Shown: positions 9,777 through 19,722 of the stretch, one piece after another
Layout: each line of letters begins with the position of its first letter
Position numbering within the stretch: position 1 is the first letter of the stretch
From: Polynucleobacter sp.
GTDB lineage: Bacteria > Pseudomonadota > Gammaproteobacteria > Burkholderiales > Burkholderiaceae
Direction: 5' to 3'
Length of the DNA stretch: 64,000 nucleotides
Assembly (NCBI GenBank): GCA_030696845.1
Contig: JAUYRJ010000069.1
Location: 1 to 64,000 of the forward strand
The notes under the pieces: model-generated
Seen by the model: the letters and a program-made list of their open reading frames with translations, nothing else
Database searches by the model: none
What the model was told of the DNA's origin: nothing
Position numbers and translations under genes: made by a program

Positions 9777-10781
9777 TTAAGCCGATCCAAAAGCAAAGGG
9801 CTCTGCAGGCATGAACTGACTTGCAGCATTTCCTGCATAGTATTTACCTCCGGCAATCGCCAACTTCTTCACTGGCGCTCCTTTTGAAAAATCCATATCC
9901 TTTAATTCCACCCAAAACGTATTCGGTGTGGTGGCGGAATCAAAGTAATAGACCATATTCTGATGATCGGTGACCGTCCGCCAAATAGAAGATGAGATAT
10001 TGGGCTTATCCGGCGTAGTGATTCCCAGCGGAACACCAATACTTCTCATGACTCCCATAACGGATGCCACTGCCTGATATTGCAATTTCTGTTCTGGCAC
10101 GGCAGAAATGTAATTCTTATCAATGGATTTCGGAATGATGCCAATAAAATAAGAGGTTCTAATAAACCGATCGGCAGCGCTGATCGTGCCTGGTAAGAAA
10201 ACATTACCCCCAATGCTCTTCCAATATTCATTGATAGCCAACTGCTGATCAAAGATGGGTGAATTTGTCATCACTTGGTATTGCTTGCCATGATGAATGG
10301 TTAAATTTCCATCGACGTATTCAAAAATTGCCGAGTCGCCACTGGAATCAGAAAGCGATAAGTGCAAACTGGCTGCACGGCCATTAGGCAAAATAGGCGA
10401 TTTAATCCTAAAAGGCTCAGCTTGAAGGCTTGTTACCGCTTCCGCAACTGTTGCGTAGTTATCCAATGCATACTGCAACCACATGGTGATTGAAATGGGG
10501 GCCTTGCCATTTAGGCTGCCGTAATTCGATTCCGCTAAGTACAATAAATTTCCGCACAAACTCTTTTCATTGATTCCATCTGCTGAGCCAATGTTGTAGC
10601 CCGAGGTAACGACGCTTCCATATTTCGAAGTCCACTCCAAAGAGCCCGTACCGCATGACCCGTTACGAGCCATACCAGCCGGAAATACCCACAGATCACT
10701 ATGCATATCCTCGCCCCAGTCCATGGAGCGGCCAGTAAGCACTAAATTATTATCTCCAACATACAAAGCCCGTGTACACAT
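9777..10781 (-). CDS. Linear amide C-N hydrolase (choloylglycine hydrolase / penicillin V acylase family), no signal peptide
   Basis: N-terminal nucleophile Cys2 'MCTRALYVGDNNLVLTGRSMDW', 'NEKSLCGNLLYL', 'VMTNSPIFDQQL'. Confidence 0.85.
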   Translation of the reverse strand: MCTRALYVGDNNLVLTGRSMDWGEDMHSDLWVFPAGMARNGSCGTGSLEWTSKYGSVVTSGYNIGSADGINEKSLCGNLLYLAESNYGSLNGKAPISITMWLQYALDNYATVAEAVTSLQAEPFRIKSPILPNGRAASLHLSLSDSSGDSAIFEYVDGNLTIHHGKQYQVMTNSPIFDQQLAINEYWKSIGGNVFLPGTISAADRFIRTSYFIGIIPKSIDKNYISAVPEQKLQYQAVASVMGVMRSIGVPLGITTPDKPNISSSIWRTVTDHQNMVYYFDSATTPNTFWVELKDMDFSKGAPVKKLAIAGGKYYAGNAASQFMPAEPFAFGSA

Positions 10782-13818: not shown

Positions 13819-14967
13819 TTGATCATGAAAACTAAAAAATTATTTAATGTAGTGGTTGCATCCTGCCTACTGGCCTATTCCATCGCAAATACATACGCAT
13901 GTACAGTACTAGCGATTACAGATAAAAACGGAAACGTTTATCAAGGTAGGGCAAACGAGTTTCCATACCAACAGCCTGATTCCTTGACCTACTGGCCAGC
14001 AGGCACCCGGATTGAGTCGGTTGCACCCGATAACAAGCAGGGTATGACTTTTAATACCAAGTATGGAATCCTCACCACCACCTTAAAAGGCATGACCCCG
14101 AATGCCAAGCAAGAGACAGTTCATGAGGGCGCCAATGACCAGGGTATGTCGATCACTGCTAATTTCTACACATTAAATTCTGAAACCACAATCACTGTGC
14201 CCGCTTCGCAAGCCCTGTCTGTGGTTGATTTTCCGACCTGGGCATTAGGAAACTTCCAAAATGTGGAGCAACTCAAGCGAGCATTACAGAATAAAGAGGC
14301 GGAAGTTTGGCTGCCCCGCATTGCAGCATACGGAAATATGATCACTCCAGTTCATTATGCGATTTATGACAAATCAGGCGGCTCCGTGGTTGTCGAGTGG
14401 AATGGTGGAAAAACCCAAATTTATGACAATAAGATAGGCGTAATGACAAATGAGCCTCCATTCCCATGGCATGTCGAGAATATGAATAACTTCGCATACC
14501 TGAGTAATGTCGACAAAAACACAGGTAAGTTCAATAAACTCAATGTAACCGCTTATGATTCTGGCGGCGCATTAGCCTCATTACCATCTACCAATACCTC
14601 GGTGGGACGGTTTGTTAAGGCCGCTTATTATGCAAACTTTGCGGAAAAGGCATCGACACCAGATCAAGCTCTATTTACCTTGAGTCATGTGATGAATAAC
14701 TTTGATAGACCCAAGGGCATTACAGTCGATAACCCCAATGCTGCTAATGCCGCTATGGGGGCTGCAGGAAGAACTTCAGAGTCAACCTACTTTACCGTGC
14801 TCAAAGATTTATCACGCAACTTATATTTAATGCGCACAATCAACGCGCTCAATTACACCCAATTTGACTTAAATAAGCTAAAAGAAGTGAAACAAACTAA
14901 GGTGGTGTCATTCAAGGATCTGAACGCGAATACCAGCCTCAATGGCGATCAGCTTTTCTTAAGATAA
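13819..14967 (+). CDS. Secreted linear amide C-N hydrolase (choloylglycine hydrolase family)
   Basis: Signal peptide ending 'SIANTYA|CTVLAITDKNGNVYQGRANEF'; predicted cleavage exposes the Cys nucleophile; 'GVMTNEPPFPWHVENMNNF'. Confidence 0.87.
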   Translation: MIMKTKKLFNVVVASCLLAYSIANTYACTVLAITDKNGNVYQGRANEFPYQQPDSLTYWPAGTRIESVAPDNKQGMTFNTKYGILTTTLKGMTPNAKQETVHEGANDQGMSITANFYTLNSETTITVPASQALSVVDFPTWALGNFQNVEQLKRALQNKEAEVWLPRIAAYGNMITPVHYAIYDKSGGSVVVEWNGGKTQIYDNKIGVMTNEPPFPWHVENMNNFAYLSNVDKNTGKFNKLNVTAYDSGGALASLPSTNTSVGRFVKAAYYANFAEKASTPDQALFTLSHVMNNFDRPKGITVDNPNAANAAMGAAGRTSESTYFTVLKDLSRNLYLMRTINALNYTQFDLNKLKEVKQTKVVSFKDLNANTSLNGDQLFLR

Positions 14968-15086: not shown

Positions 15087-16223
15087 TTACTTGTAGAACA
15101 GGTTAAATGCATCGGCGCCTGCTTTATCAACATCGTAGGTTGAGACCGATTTAATCTGTTTAACGCCCTTGAGCTTGTTCATATCGATCATGGACCAATT
15201 CAATGCATTAATGCTGCGGACGTAATACAGGTTACGAGAAAGATCGGCCATGACAGTCCACTCAGTCACTTCGCTTGATGTGCTCTTGCTACGCACACCA
15301 TCGCCAGTGCCGCCAGATCCATCCACTGTTAAATCATGAGGACGATCAAAGTTATTCATGAGATGCCCTAAAGTAATAATGGCCTCATCTGGTGTCTTGG
15401 CTTTGCGTACGTAGTTCACGAAAAAAGCTGCTTTAACAAAACGACCTTGCGATGTCTGAGCAGAAGGAAGCGCAGTCAATGCAATGCCTGCATCTTGAGT
15501 CGCTAATTTTAGTTTTCCGAGCTGACCAGTATTCTTATCCACGTTCGTGAAGGTGTAGTTACTTAAATTCTGAAGATGCCATGGAAACTCAGGTCCATTG
15601 GTCATCACACCCACTGGGTTGTCATACACATTCACTTTACCGTTCGTAAATTCAATCGCAATAGCGGCGCCTTTTTTGTCGTGAACGGCGTAGTGTTGCG
15701 GTAGCGGTGAATTTGGATCTAAGAACTTCGAAACAGGTACCCAAAATTCGGTATTACCACTCGCCATCGCCGCTTTCACCTCGGCTACAGTTTTAAAATT
15801 ACCCAGGATCCAAGCACCAAGATCATTGACTGCCAAAACCTTAGCATTGTCATTGCCTACTGTTGGCGAAGTGGTGCCATTAAGCCAGTTCATGGAAAAG
15901 CTCAGACCTTGATCATTGGCTCCTTCCGCAAAAGACACTTGCTTCGCGCCTGCAATAACTGCTGCACTCATACCCAATATCGCGAATTTGGTATCAAACG
16001 TTAAACCTTGCGCTCCACTTGGAGTGGCAGAGATTACTTTTGTTCCAGCAGGAAAATACGTTAGATTTGTGGGCACCCTGGCGCTGTATTCCATGGTGCG
16101 GCCATGGTATCCATTCCCATTTGCGTCCGTATAAACCAATGCCGTACAAGCAATGCTGTTACTTATTGAGGACGCGGCAAGGCAAGCAGCCAAAAATGCT
16201 TTAAATATATTTTTTGAACTCAA
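15087..16223 (-). CDS. Secreted linear amide C-N hydrolase (choloylglycine hydrolase family), paralogue of 13819..14967
   Basis: 'SISNSIA|CTALVYTDANGNGYHGRTMEYSARVPTNLTYFPAGTKV'; 'GVMTNGPEFPWHLQNLSNY'. Confidence 0.87.
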   Translation of the reverse strand: MSSKNIFKAFLAACLAASSISNSIACTALVYTDANGNGYHGRTMEYSARVPTNLTYFPAGTKVISATPSGAQGLTFDTKFAILGMSAAVIAGAKQVSFAEGANDQGLSFSMNWLNGTTSPTVGNDNAKVLAVNDLGAWILGNFKTVAEVKAAMASGNTEFWVPVSKFLDPNSPLPQHYAVHDKKGAAIAIEFTNGKVNVYDNPVGVMTNGPEFPWHLQNLSNYTFTNVDKNTGQLGKLKLATQDAGIALTALPSAQTSQGRFVKAAFFVNYVRKAKTPDEAIITLGHLMNNFDRPHDLTVDGSGGTGDGVRSKSTSSEVTEWTVMADLSRNLYYVRSINALNWSMIDMNKLKGVKQIKSVSTYDVDKAGADAFNLFYK

Positions 16224-16307: not shown

Positions 16308-16675
16308 GGAAAACCCTAGATTATTTCCATTGACTGTGAATTGCCCTAGATATCTGAGGTTGTGGCCAAACGAGCTTGCTTGTGCAAACCATAAAATTTT
16401 TTGATAGTTACTTAGCGTTACAGCATCATTCTTAAGTGGCCCACCCCCTAAACTGGTGGGCATCAAAATAAATTCATGTTGTTTAGATCCAATTTGCTGA
16501 AGAGGCCGCCGAGTATGTCTGCCTAGCGTTGGGAGACGATTCATTACGATATGGCTAACTTTGATATGGAATCTTCTCGGGTGCAGGGCCTAGAAAATCC
16601 ATTTGGTTCCAAAAGATTAAGGGACGTGATTGATAAAGGTGTAAACCATGTGTCCGGTACGTATCTTGAGGTTGC

Positions 16676-16715
16676 TGGTGGACCCACCGGGACTTGAACC
16701 TGGGACCAAAGGAGT
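16676..16715 (-). pseudogene. tRNA-Ile2/Met(CAU) 3'-half (3' exon of an intron-containing tRNA, 5' half missing)
   Basis: Minus strand ACTCCTTTGGTCCCAGGTTCAAGTCCCGGTGGGTCCACCA differs at only 3 of 40 nt from the 3' half of the intact tRNA at 19646..19722; similarity stops right after the anticodon position. Confidence 0.85.
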
Positions 16716-16861
16716 CCAGTTTGTGTAATTTTCATTACACCCTGGACTATGCCTTCACCATATGCTTACGCACTTAGGCGGGTGCCGTCTAATCTCTACA
16801 CCTTCAACAGCACACAAGACCTTTAGCAATATCACCGCCCTGCTGAGTGCTGTTTGTCGGT
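16716..16861 (-). ncRNA. Group I intron, 3' portion (P4'?-P6-P7-P3'-P8-P7'-P9-omegaG); 5' half not found
   Basis: Minus strand GAAGGTGTAGAGATTAGACGGCACCCGCCTAAGTGCGTAAGCATATGGTGAAGGCATAGTCCAGGGTGTAATGAAAATTACACAAACTGG. It matches the remembered Azoarcus tRNA-Ile(CAU) intron core (GAAGGTGTAGAGACTAGACGGCACCCACCTAAGG...TATGGTGAAGGCATAGTCCAGGGAGTGGCGAAAGTCACACAAACCGG). P9 = GTGTAAT-GAAA-ATTACAC; P6 = AACAGCAC...GTGCTGTT (16806-16854). Confidence 0.85.
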
Positions 16862-16895: not shown

Positions 16896-17612
16896 TTACA
16901 GCTGCGCCGTCGGCTTCAGGAAGAAATCAATTGCCAACGCAACCACTGGCGGCTCGATGTGGTGCGGGCCCCTGAATTCCAAGGAGGTTACGTCATAACC
17001 TGCTGCCTTCAGTTTGGCTACGTGAGGACGCGCACTAGTTTCAATTGGCAGCTGCTCGTCTTCTAAACCATGGGCGATGAAGATGCGGGGTGTGCCATTT
17101 TGCTGAAGGACTGACATAAAGCCTGCAGAAAAAGCGATCACGTGGCTAACGACGTCGCCATTGGTCACGCCTGCTGACAGCGCATAGCTGCCTCCGTCCG
17201 AAAACCCAGCAAATCCCAAGTGGGATGGATTGATAGAAAAACGTGACGCCACTTCGCGTAATGCTTTGTCCAGCCGCTCTAGGTCTGGGCCGTTACCACC
17301 CACGACCAAGTCCCAAGTCGGAAACTGAGACTGCGGCAGCAGAAGCAAAAAGCCATGCTGACACGCATGGTCGATCAAGAATGGCAGCACTTTGTCGGCG
17401 CTGCCACCGGCGCCATGAAACATCACGAGCAGAGCGACTGGAACTCCAGGCCGCAGACCGTCCGGCACGATCAATACAGCATCGCGTTCGCTAGCAATAC
17501 CCAGGTTGTGACGACCAGCAGGTAAGGCTTGCTTGTCGGGTACAGTTCCGGATCGAAAACTGAGGCGGCCCAACACCGAATCTCCCAGGATAGACGTGTC
17601 AAACGTTGCCAT
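16896..17612 (-). CDS. Alpha/beta hydrolase (phospholipase/carboxylesterase-like)
   Basis: Nucleophile elbow 'LGFAGFSDGGSYAL' (GxSxG), 'IAHGLEDEQLPIE' acid, 'GPHHIEPPVV' His. Probable ATG at 17612 (MATFDTSILGD), one base after the AAA gene stop, rather than ORF start 17657. Confidence 0.82.
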   Translation of the reverse strand: MATFDTSILGDSVLGRLSFRSGTVPDKQALPAGRHNLGIASERDAVLIVPDGLRPGVPVALLVMFHGAGGSADKVLPFLIDHACQHGFLLLLPQSQFPTWDLVVGGNGPDLERLDKALREVASRFSINPSHLGFAGFSDGGSYALSAGVTNGDVVSHVIAFSAGFMSVLQQNGTPRIFIAHGLEDEQLPIETSARPHVAKLKAAGYDVTSLEFRGPHHIEPPVVALAIDFFLKPTAQL

Positions 17613-17613
17613 C

Positions 17614-19254
17614 TTAGACGGGCTTACCGATGCTGCGGAAAGCCGCGCACTGAGCAAAGGCTTCCTCGCTGAGCAATAAATTCCTACCCTTGCAAAACTT
17701 GAGCGTCAGCTTGAGTAACTCCTTGATATCGCGGCCGCTGGCAGCTGCGTAGGTTATTGTCAAGCGCTCAACTAGGTCATCGGGCAGTTCAGTGTTGAAC
17801 TGCTGCGCTAACGATTTCCACAGTTGTTTCGCTTGCACTTGTGTCGGTGTCTCGAACTGGATGATGGCGATGCAGCGCGACAAGACGGCGTCATCAATGT
17901 CGGCTACACGGTTGGTGGTCATGAACAGCAAGCCGTTGAAGTACTCGAGGGTACGCAGAAACTCAGCCACGATGGCGTTGTGCTGCAGATCGTTGTCGCG
18001 GCGGCGAATGTAGACGTCGGCCTCGTCGAGCAACAGCACCGAATCCCAACGCGCCGCGCGCCGCAGGATTTTCGAAAGATTGGCTTCCACTGAGCTTGCA
18101 GTCACGCCGAGTTGACCAGAATGTACGCGGTATAGTGGTTTCTCGACGACCTCGGCATAGACCTCTGCTGTCAGCGTCTTGCCTAGGCCAGGCTCGCCTT
18201 TGCACAGGATGGTTGTACCGCCCGACTTACCCTCGACAATGTCCTCCATTAGGAAGTTACGATCAGCGGTCAAGATATCAATCAGGTCGCGATGAGCATG
18301 CGGCAGAACCAGCTTGTCACGCAATTCTGGCTTGTAACGATACGCCTGAACATTTTGCACATGCGCCCATATGCTGCTGTGGTAATCCAGGTGAAATAGG
18401 TGTAGATAGCAATGCTGGGGAATCCGTTCAAAACCCTCGCTGATACCGCTTCCGCGCCAGAAGGTTGCATCGGCGGTGGTGTCAAAGTGGCGCTCCAGCA
18501 GCTCTTCGTCATTGACGCAGCGGGCCGTTGTGCCTGCCTGCAGCCGCATGCATTCGAGTTGAGGACGAGGCCCTTCGCTAGACATCCAGACAGCGCCAGA
18601 AACAGTAAACTGCGCACCAAACTTCGGCTGCATCTGCATGAAACGCTTTAAGTGTGTCTCGTATTCGTTTTTGAATTCCGCACATTCTTTGAAGTAACCA
18701 TAACCCGTCATCAATTCAGGAATCGTGCAATCCAGAATATCTTCGGCATAAAAGGTGATGCTGTAGGTCATGCCAGTACGCCTTAGCCTCGGATCGGTAA
18801 CCGGCCCCCGTTCTGCGGCCTGCAAGGTATTAGCCAGTAGACCGATGATGACGTAAGCTGCACTATCGACAGGCTGCACATAGCGCATGGAATGAACCAG
18901 CCAGGGCAGCAACACACCATCCTTGCCGAGCTTATAGAGCCAGCCATCGATCAGGTCACGCGACAACCAAGCGATCAGACCGGGGATCAGATGCTCCAAG
19001 CTGGGGATTTTTCGGGCAGCCGGTGCGGCGTGGATATTGTCCAGCGCCAACATTTGGAACATCAGCTCACGCTCATTGGCCGAACGGCACAGGCCGTAGA
19101 GTGTATTAAGTGAGGCGGCGTCGAAAAGGTGACTGGGCACCACACGTTTACCTCGGGAACGGCCGTACTCGCTCAGCCGCTTAGCAAGCAGTGAATCTTC
19201 ATTGACCGTTCCAAGTAGCGCATTGGCCAGGGTTTCTGGTATTTCGAATTCCAT
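17614..19254 (-). CDS. AAA+ ATPase with a large uncharacterised N-terminal region
   Basis: Walker A 'CKGEPGLGKTLTAE', Walker B 'VLLLDEADVYI', sensor-1/Arg region 'LLFMTTNRVADIDDAVLSRC'. The first ~300 aa match no family I recognise. Confidence 0.85.
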   Translation of the reverse strand: MEFEIPETLANALLGTVNEDSLLAKRLSEYGRSRGKRVVPSHLFDAASLNTLYGLCRSANERELMFQMLALDNIHAAPAARKIPSLEHLIPGLIAWLSRDLIDGWLYKLGKDGVLLPWLVHSMRYVQPVDSAAYVIIGLLANTLQAAERGPVTDPRLRRTGMTYSITFYAEDILDCTIPELMTGYGYFKECAEFKNEYETHLKRFMQMQPKFGAQFTVSGAVWMSSEGPRPQLECMRLQAGTTARCVNDEELLERHFDTTADATFWRGSGISEGFERIPQHCYLHLFHLDYHSSIWAHVQNVQAYRYKPELRDKLVLPHAHRDLIDILTADRNFLMEDIVEGKSGGTTILCKGEPGLGKTLTAEVYAEVVEKPLYRVHSGQLGVTASSVEANLSKILRRAARWDSVLLLDEADVYIRRRDNDLQHNAIVAEFLRTLEYFNGLLFMTTNRVADIDDAVLSRCIAIIQFETPTQVQAKQLWKSLAQQFNTELPDDLVERLTITYAAASGRDIKELLKLTLKFCKGRNLLLSEEAFAQCAAFRSIGKPV

Positions 19255-19645: not shown

Positions 19646-19722
19646 TGGTGGGCCCACCAGGACTTGAACCTGGGACCAAAGGATTATGAGTCCTCTGCTC
19701 TAACCAACTGAGCTATGGGCCC
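19646..19722 (-). tRNA. tRNA with CAU anticodon, probably tRNA-Ile2 (k2CAU); elongator Met not excluded
   Basis: GGGCCCATAGCTCAGTTGGTTAGAGCAGAGGACTCATAATCCTTTGGTCCCAGGTTCAAGTCCTGGTGGGCCCACCA: full cloverleaf, encoded CCA, loop CTCATAA. Confidence 0.93.

Follow-up and report, generated by a model that had tools for sequence, protein, structure and literature searches.

An AAA ATPase gene and an alpha/beta hydrolase gene, which lie side by side in a 64,000-nucleotide stretch of Polynucleobacter sp. DNA (referred to here as the window), very probably encode true partners with a linked function. The pair is found again in many bacteria of fresh water and soil, also where the two genes are far apart, and the persistence of the link through reordering and unlinking is, as comparative evidence of a common function, unusually strong. 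We propose, with a probability of roughly 0.45, that an AAA remodelling ATPase and a cytosolic serine esterase act on one substrate or pathway as an accessory two-protein module of metabolism or quality control. Within Polynucleobacter, sequence comparison indicates that the pair is a functional cassette of ~2.5 kb, which has undergone recent and repeated horizontal transfer into a tRNA-Met hotspot.

Organization of the locus

The two genes and the elements that bound them are as follows:

19646..19722, minus strand: intact, intronless tRNA-Met(CAT), the upstream boundary of the unit
17614..19254, minus strand: AAA ATPase gene, an ORF of 546 aa
16896..17612, minus strand: alpha/beta hydrolase gene (cytosolic-type serine esterase), 238 aa, with the ATG at 17612 and the stop at 16896
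16716..16806, minus strand: what remains of a group I intron's 3' part, attached to the displaced 3' half of tRNA-Met (boundaries by eye from an alignment)
16672..16713, minus strand: copy (42 nt, 93%) of the 3' half of tRNA-Met, a displaced att-like fragment and the downstream boundary

The original prediction described a 546-aa AAA protein encoded one base before a GxSxG hydrolase, and both the coordinates and the TAA-G-ATG junction are confirmed. It also regarded the pair as translationally coupled, in agreement with the one-base junction found in 15/15 Polynucleobacter copies (14 loci and the window, reading frame checked); a premature stop was seen in none of these copies over the stretch tested. 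The AAA and hydrolase genes are the sole long ORFs between the intact tRNA-Met and the copy of its 3' half, which is 2,970 nt away, and the view of the pair as the only cargo of a tRNA-associated mobile unit holds. Like a tRNA-associated integrative element, the unit is flanked by a direct repeat of the 3' end of its tRNA. A second mark of such elements, an integrase of their own, is absent from the window's contig when scanned with PF00589; integrases sit elsewhere in the host genome, which is ~1.95 Mb in size. The GC content of the pair (54-56%) resembles that of the core genes rpoD, dnaG, tsaD and dxs (50-56%), with a step in GC against the left flank only, so that GC content alone is no evidence of transfer.

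It is noted that three paralogue-like proteins encoded to the left of the unit (window 9777-10781, 13819-14967 and 15087-16223) resemble, by eye, linear amide (choloylglycine-type) hydrolases.

Pairing of the two genes across genomes

The co-occurrence of the two families, which had been suggested as a check, was found well beyond Polynucleobacter. A hydrolase gene adjoins the AAA gene in 61 of the 80 best relatives in the genome collection, and the arrangement varies among lineages. The AAA gene comes first in Polynucleobacter and in the Comamonadaceae/Sphaerotilaceae genera Polaromonas, Variovorax, Rubrivivax, Aquincola and Caenimonas. The order is reversed, with the hydrolase gene leading, in other Burkholderiaceae and in part of the Oxalobacteraceae (Paraburkholderia, Caballeronia, Cupriavidus, Pandoraea, Herbaspirillum, Massilia and Trinickia), and the two genes are convergent in one case, Keguizhuia. 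Of the 19 genomes in which no hydrolase gene adjoins the AAA gene, 18 were searched again, and 14 of these have the enzyme elsewhere in the genome, at 57-68% identity; the four AAA-bearing genomes in which this search did not find it are all MAGs. The genes are unlinked in Herminiimonas, Oxalicibacterium and the Rhodocyclaceae. Long frames in two loci (L048 and L265) that looked like AAA-hydrolase fusions proved to be spurious upstream extensions.

Broader draws of genomes gave the same pattern. The genomes counted here and above are related and so do not provide independent counts. Across the order, the hydrolase (E<=1e-20) is present in 3/399 genomes, the window's own included, and these are the same three that carry an AAA protein of at least 60% identity. 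In a set of 200 relatives, both proteins occur in the same 14 genomes. In the plasmid records, the ten with an AAA protein of at least 59% identity are ten of the eleven with a hydrolase of at least 57%. The hydrolase occurred without the AAA protein in three cases only, each partial, distant or incompletely sampled: an 81-residue fragment at a contig end in one of the 200 relatives (Polynucleobacter G046), a 38% relative in G686, which together with the window's own accounts for the 2/274 hydrolases of the class-wide draw, and the eleventh plasmid-set hydrolase, located on a 2.8-Mb replicon of Methylobacterium bullatum where the AAA protein is absent from that replicon, the only one searched. 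One genome (G080) has two copies of the pair, C1 and C2 (L037 and L038), the second on a 23.6-kb contig.

The two proteins also share a common history. Distances in the AAA and hydrolase trees are correlated with r=0.93, a value reached in 0/500 shuffles, and dN/dS values of 0.09 and 0.13 for the two genes indicate purifying selection on both. It may be argued that the two are independent accessory genes that serve as metabolic cargo, are favoured by the same lineages and have repeatedly been sorted together with no common mechanism. The Polynucleobacter hotspot does carry other, unrelated cargo, and the neighbours of the hydrolase differ among the unlinked genomes. However, the pairing outlasts reversal of the gene order, convergence and full unlinking, and the trees match, which makes independent sorting very unlikely.

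Two kinds of neighbouring gene were identified by eye. Unlinked hydrolase genes lie near opgD/opgG/opgH-like genes of periplasmic glucan synthesis in two families (L275-L278, L280, L286 and L287). A gene for a GlxA-like regulator is near the AAA gene in four Polynucleobacter loci (L032, L033, L034 and L035, upstream) and in a Rhodocyclaceae MAG (L147, 7419-8471).

Horizontal transfer at tRNA-Met in Polynucleobacter

The genes flanking the pair differ between Polynucleobacter loci, and in most comparisons the DNA common to them is the pair alone, which spans approximately -110 to +2370-2430 when counted from the AAA start. Fragments of the tRNA-Met 3' end are found near most copies, upstream and in several genomes downstream as well. 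In a survey of the genus, the 3' half of tRNA-Met has matches in 78/101 genomes, and many of these carry 2-8 copies, often clustered over tens of kb; there were no control matches among the rows listed. The multiple copies suggest a cassette-like integration hotspot in the genus. The dS of the pair between species is 0.11-0.60, and that of rpoD is at least 1.8 or saturated in 17/21 comparisons. In both the AAA and the hydrolase trees, the Polynucleobacter clade groups with Polaromonas and not with its own family.

Group I introns are present at tRNA-Met above the Rfam cut-off in four sister loci of Polynucleobacter, where the intron-bearing tRNA-Met is split just past the anticodon:

L033, 6854-7063, minus strand: group I catalytic intron
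L034, 1988-2202: group I catalytic intron
L035, 12547-12756, minus strand: group I catalytic intron
L042, 7882-8107: group I catalytic intron

The intact tRNA-Met of the window has no intron, yet its displaced 3' half is joined to the intron remnant. The unit may be comparable to integrase-less tRNA islands of the satellite or tycheposon type, with a small cargo between a tRNA and its 3' copy and with integrases elsewhere; it differs in its target, a tRNA-Met that in some genomes contains a group I intron. The locus also illustrates how a freshwater bacterium with a streamlined genome exchanges an entire two-gene function by way of a tRNA-Met hotspot in which such an intron is sometimes present.

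The AAA protein and the hydrolase

The AAA protein consists of a ~300-aa N-terminal region followed by a single AAA domain (~340-520) with the Walker A motif GEPGLGKT, the Walker B motif LLLDEAD, sensor 1 and Arg460. PF00004 matches the C-terminal AAA module alone (58.5 bits against a Pfam cut-off of 21.2). The large N-terminal half had been called unassigned, and indeed no Pfam family matches the N-terminal ~300 aa in 49/49 members scanned. Structure prediction is confident along most of the protein (mean pLDDT 87), and the core fold is nearest to 26S Rpt, Msp1, Rix7 and p97 in Foldseek searches. Walker A and Walker B are kept in 75/75 sequences and Arg460 is invariant in alignment A3. Fold, Walker motifs and arginine finger place the core with the classical AAA proteins of the Msp1/p97/Rpt type.

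The AAA core fold, the Walker A/B motifs and the position of the arginine finger are shared with Msp1/ATAD1, Rix7/NVL, p97/Cdc48 and the proteasomal Rpt proteins. In contrast to these, the present protein has an N-terminal region without a convincing match, a single AAA domain and, apparently, no canonical aromatic pore loop 1. The pore loop 1 region reads YRVHSGQLGxTAxS or a close variant, with no aromatic after the strand in a comparison by eye with Rix7, and the usual aromatic residue of this loop seems to be missing from the sequences. No transmembrane anchor was noticed in the AAA protein.

In the hydrolase, the triad Ser138-Asp185-His217 is invariant in 26/26 sequences, the catalytic serine is kept in 75/75, the nucleophile elbow is GFSDG and the oxyanion motif is of the HGAGG type. 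Triad and oxyanion motif are those of a serine esterase of the Abhydrolase_2 kind, with a match to PF02230 that is marginal (24.1 bits, cut-off 23) and a weak score on the YpfH-type model PRK11460. No signal peptide is obvious by eye. The nearest folds are those of LC-Est1C, Est2 and feruloyl esterases, from a model of moderate confidence (pLDDT 73). The alpha/beta hydrolase fold and the triad are thus like those of YpfH/PRK11460, LC-Est1C and Thermogutta Est2, at low identity. What sets the enzyme apart from other cytosolic carboxylesterases and small esterases is that it forms its own subfamily (at least 57% identity), almost confined to genomes with the AAA protein.

Proposed mechanism

A specific mechanism can be put forward only tentatively for the proposed module of remodelling ATPase and esterase. 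The AAA protein may form a ring, with its N-terminal region binding the esterase or the substrate of the esterase. ATP hydrolysis would then remodel the bound esterase or substrate, in the manner of an activase or a disassembly chaperone. Since pore loop 1 seems to lack its usual aromatic residue, a classical threading unfoldase would be the less favoured model. The target from which the cytosolic serine esterase would remove an acyl or ester group may be either a metabolite or a protein that carries an acyl group.

A different possibility is a quality-control or deacylation machine, in which the AAA protein acts as a true Msp1/p97-like unfoldase or extractase and hands acylated or membrane-attached clients to a hydrolase resembling an acyl-protein thioesterase. 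The proximity of the core fold to Rpt/Msp1/Rix7/p97 would fit such a machine, as would a hydrolase that reaches the Abhydrolase_2 cut-off, scores weakly on PRK11460 and has no obvious signal peptide. Given the apparent loss of the pore-loop aromatic, an AAA protein with no noticed membrane anchor and the marginal nature of the Abhydrolase_2 match, we consider this machine unlikely.

A more far-reaching form of the activase model, which we regard as rather doubtful, is a new ATP-dependent esterase system. Here the AAA ring, whose N-terminal domain would be new, would activate or feed a dedicated cytosolic serine esterase; the AAA half would be shared with large plasmids and with jumbo phages of Bacillus, and in Polynucleobacter the system would have spread as a minimal tRNA-Met cassette.

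A link to PHA metabolism was also considered and set aside, as phaC is present in 95/96 good Polynucleobacter genomes and is hence uninformative.

Relation to defence systems

The original prediction noted that the pair fits the general architecture of defence or toxin modules, and an anti-phage role of the abortive-infection kind can be envisaged: the AAA protein would sense infection and free the hydrolase as an effector that destroys a lipid or metabolite. A two-gene cassette on mobile DNA with a patchy distribution, at a tRNA-Met hotspot with repeated tRNA fragments, would suit this role. The AAA core weakly matches IetA of PADLOC (7.9e-16), its best match there, and also TRIP13. However, these PADLOC and NCBIfam matches are limited to the generic AAA core and fall far below the cut-off of the IetA equivalog NF042959 (43.8 against 510 bits). 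The earlier view of the pair as a candidate undescribed system holds in that there is no named system for it. PADLOC has no match to the hydrolase.

Comparison with the known systems leads in the same direction. IetAS, which consists of the AAA ATPase IetA and the protease IetS, has the same two-gene layout of AAA protein and serine hydrolase; the present pair differs in matching through the AAA core only, in having a partner that is not a subtilase and in its often unlinked genes. The gene adjoining the AAA gene encodes an alpha/beta hydrolase, where IetAS would have the subtilisin-like protease. Nor does the conserved unit of two genes include the cyclase and HORMA protein expected beside the AAA gene in CBASS with TRIP13 (Cap6).

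The neighbours of the pair in 29 loci are metabolic and regulatory genes by Pfam. The suggested enrichment for defence genes was not borne out, as no recurring defence family was found by PADLOC among 123 neighbour proteins, called with a simple codon-usage filter. A defence island was rejected on the same scan, which returned scattered generic matches, such as MzaA to a housekeeping sigma-70. Unlinked genes are unusual for defence systems, and the unlinked arrangement in many genomes is a further argument against a sensor-effector system. In addition, jumbo phages themselves encode relatives of the AAA protein. Because the neighbours are metabolic, the genes often unlinked and the IetA cut-off missed, defence against viruses by the pair is not supported, and we regard an anti-phage role as highly improbable.

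The wider AAA family

Relatives of the AAA protein with 34-47% identity, N-terminal region included, are encoded by Pseudomonas, Xanthomonas, Enterobacterales and Rhodococcus plasmids, by the Bacillus jumbo phages AR9/PBS1 and by viral contigs. Beside the more distant chromosomal relatives, no hydrolase was seen. A hydrolase of the same subfamily is absent from the distant plasmid and phage loci whose neighbours were read, and the esterase is therefore the partner of one AAA clade, not of the whole family. A conserved small partner downstream of the plasmid and phage relatives was considered and rejected, the ORFs there being mutually unrelated. The pairing gives an uncharacterised and widespread AAA family, found on chromosomes, megaplasmids and in jumbo phages, a specific enzyme partner through which its function can be tested.

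The viral relatives were found with an alignment query, a single-protein query having given no match in the viral scan. The gp082-type AAA protein of AR9/PBS1 (phrog_29662), a putative 'ATP-dependent protease' by annotation, is 46% identical to the window's protein over residues 49-542, which include the N-terminal region; it differs in that no hydrolase adjoins its gene in AR9. This near-full-length homologue is present at 5848-7494 of L082 and in other Bacillus jumbo phage records. The AR9/PBS1 protein is closer to that of the window than are many chromosomal relatives from the Burkholderiales.
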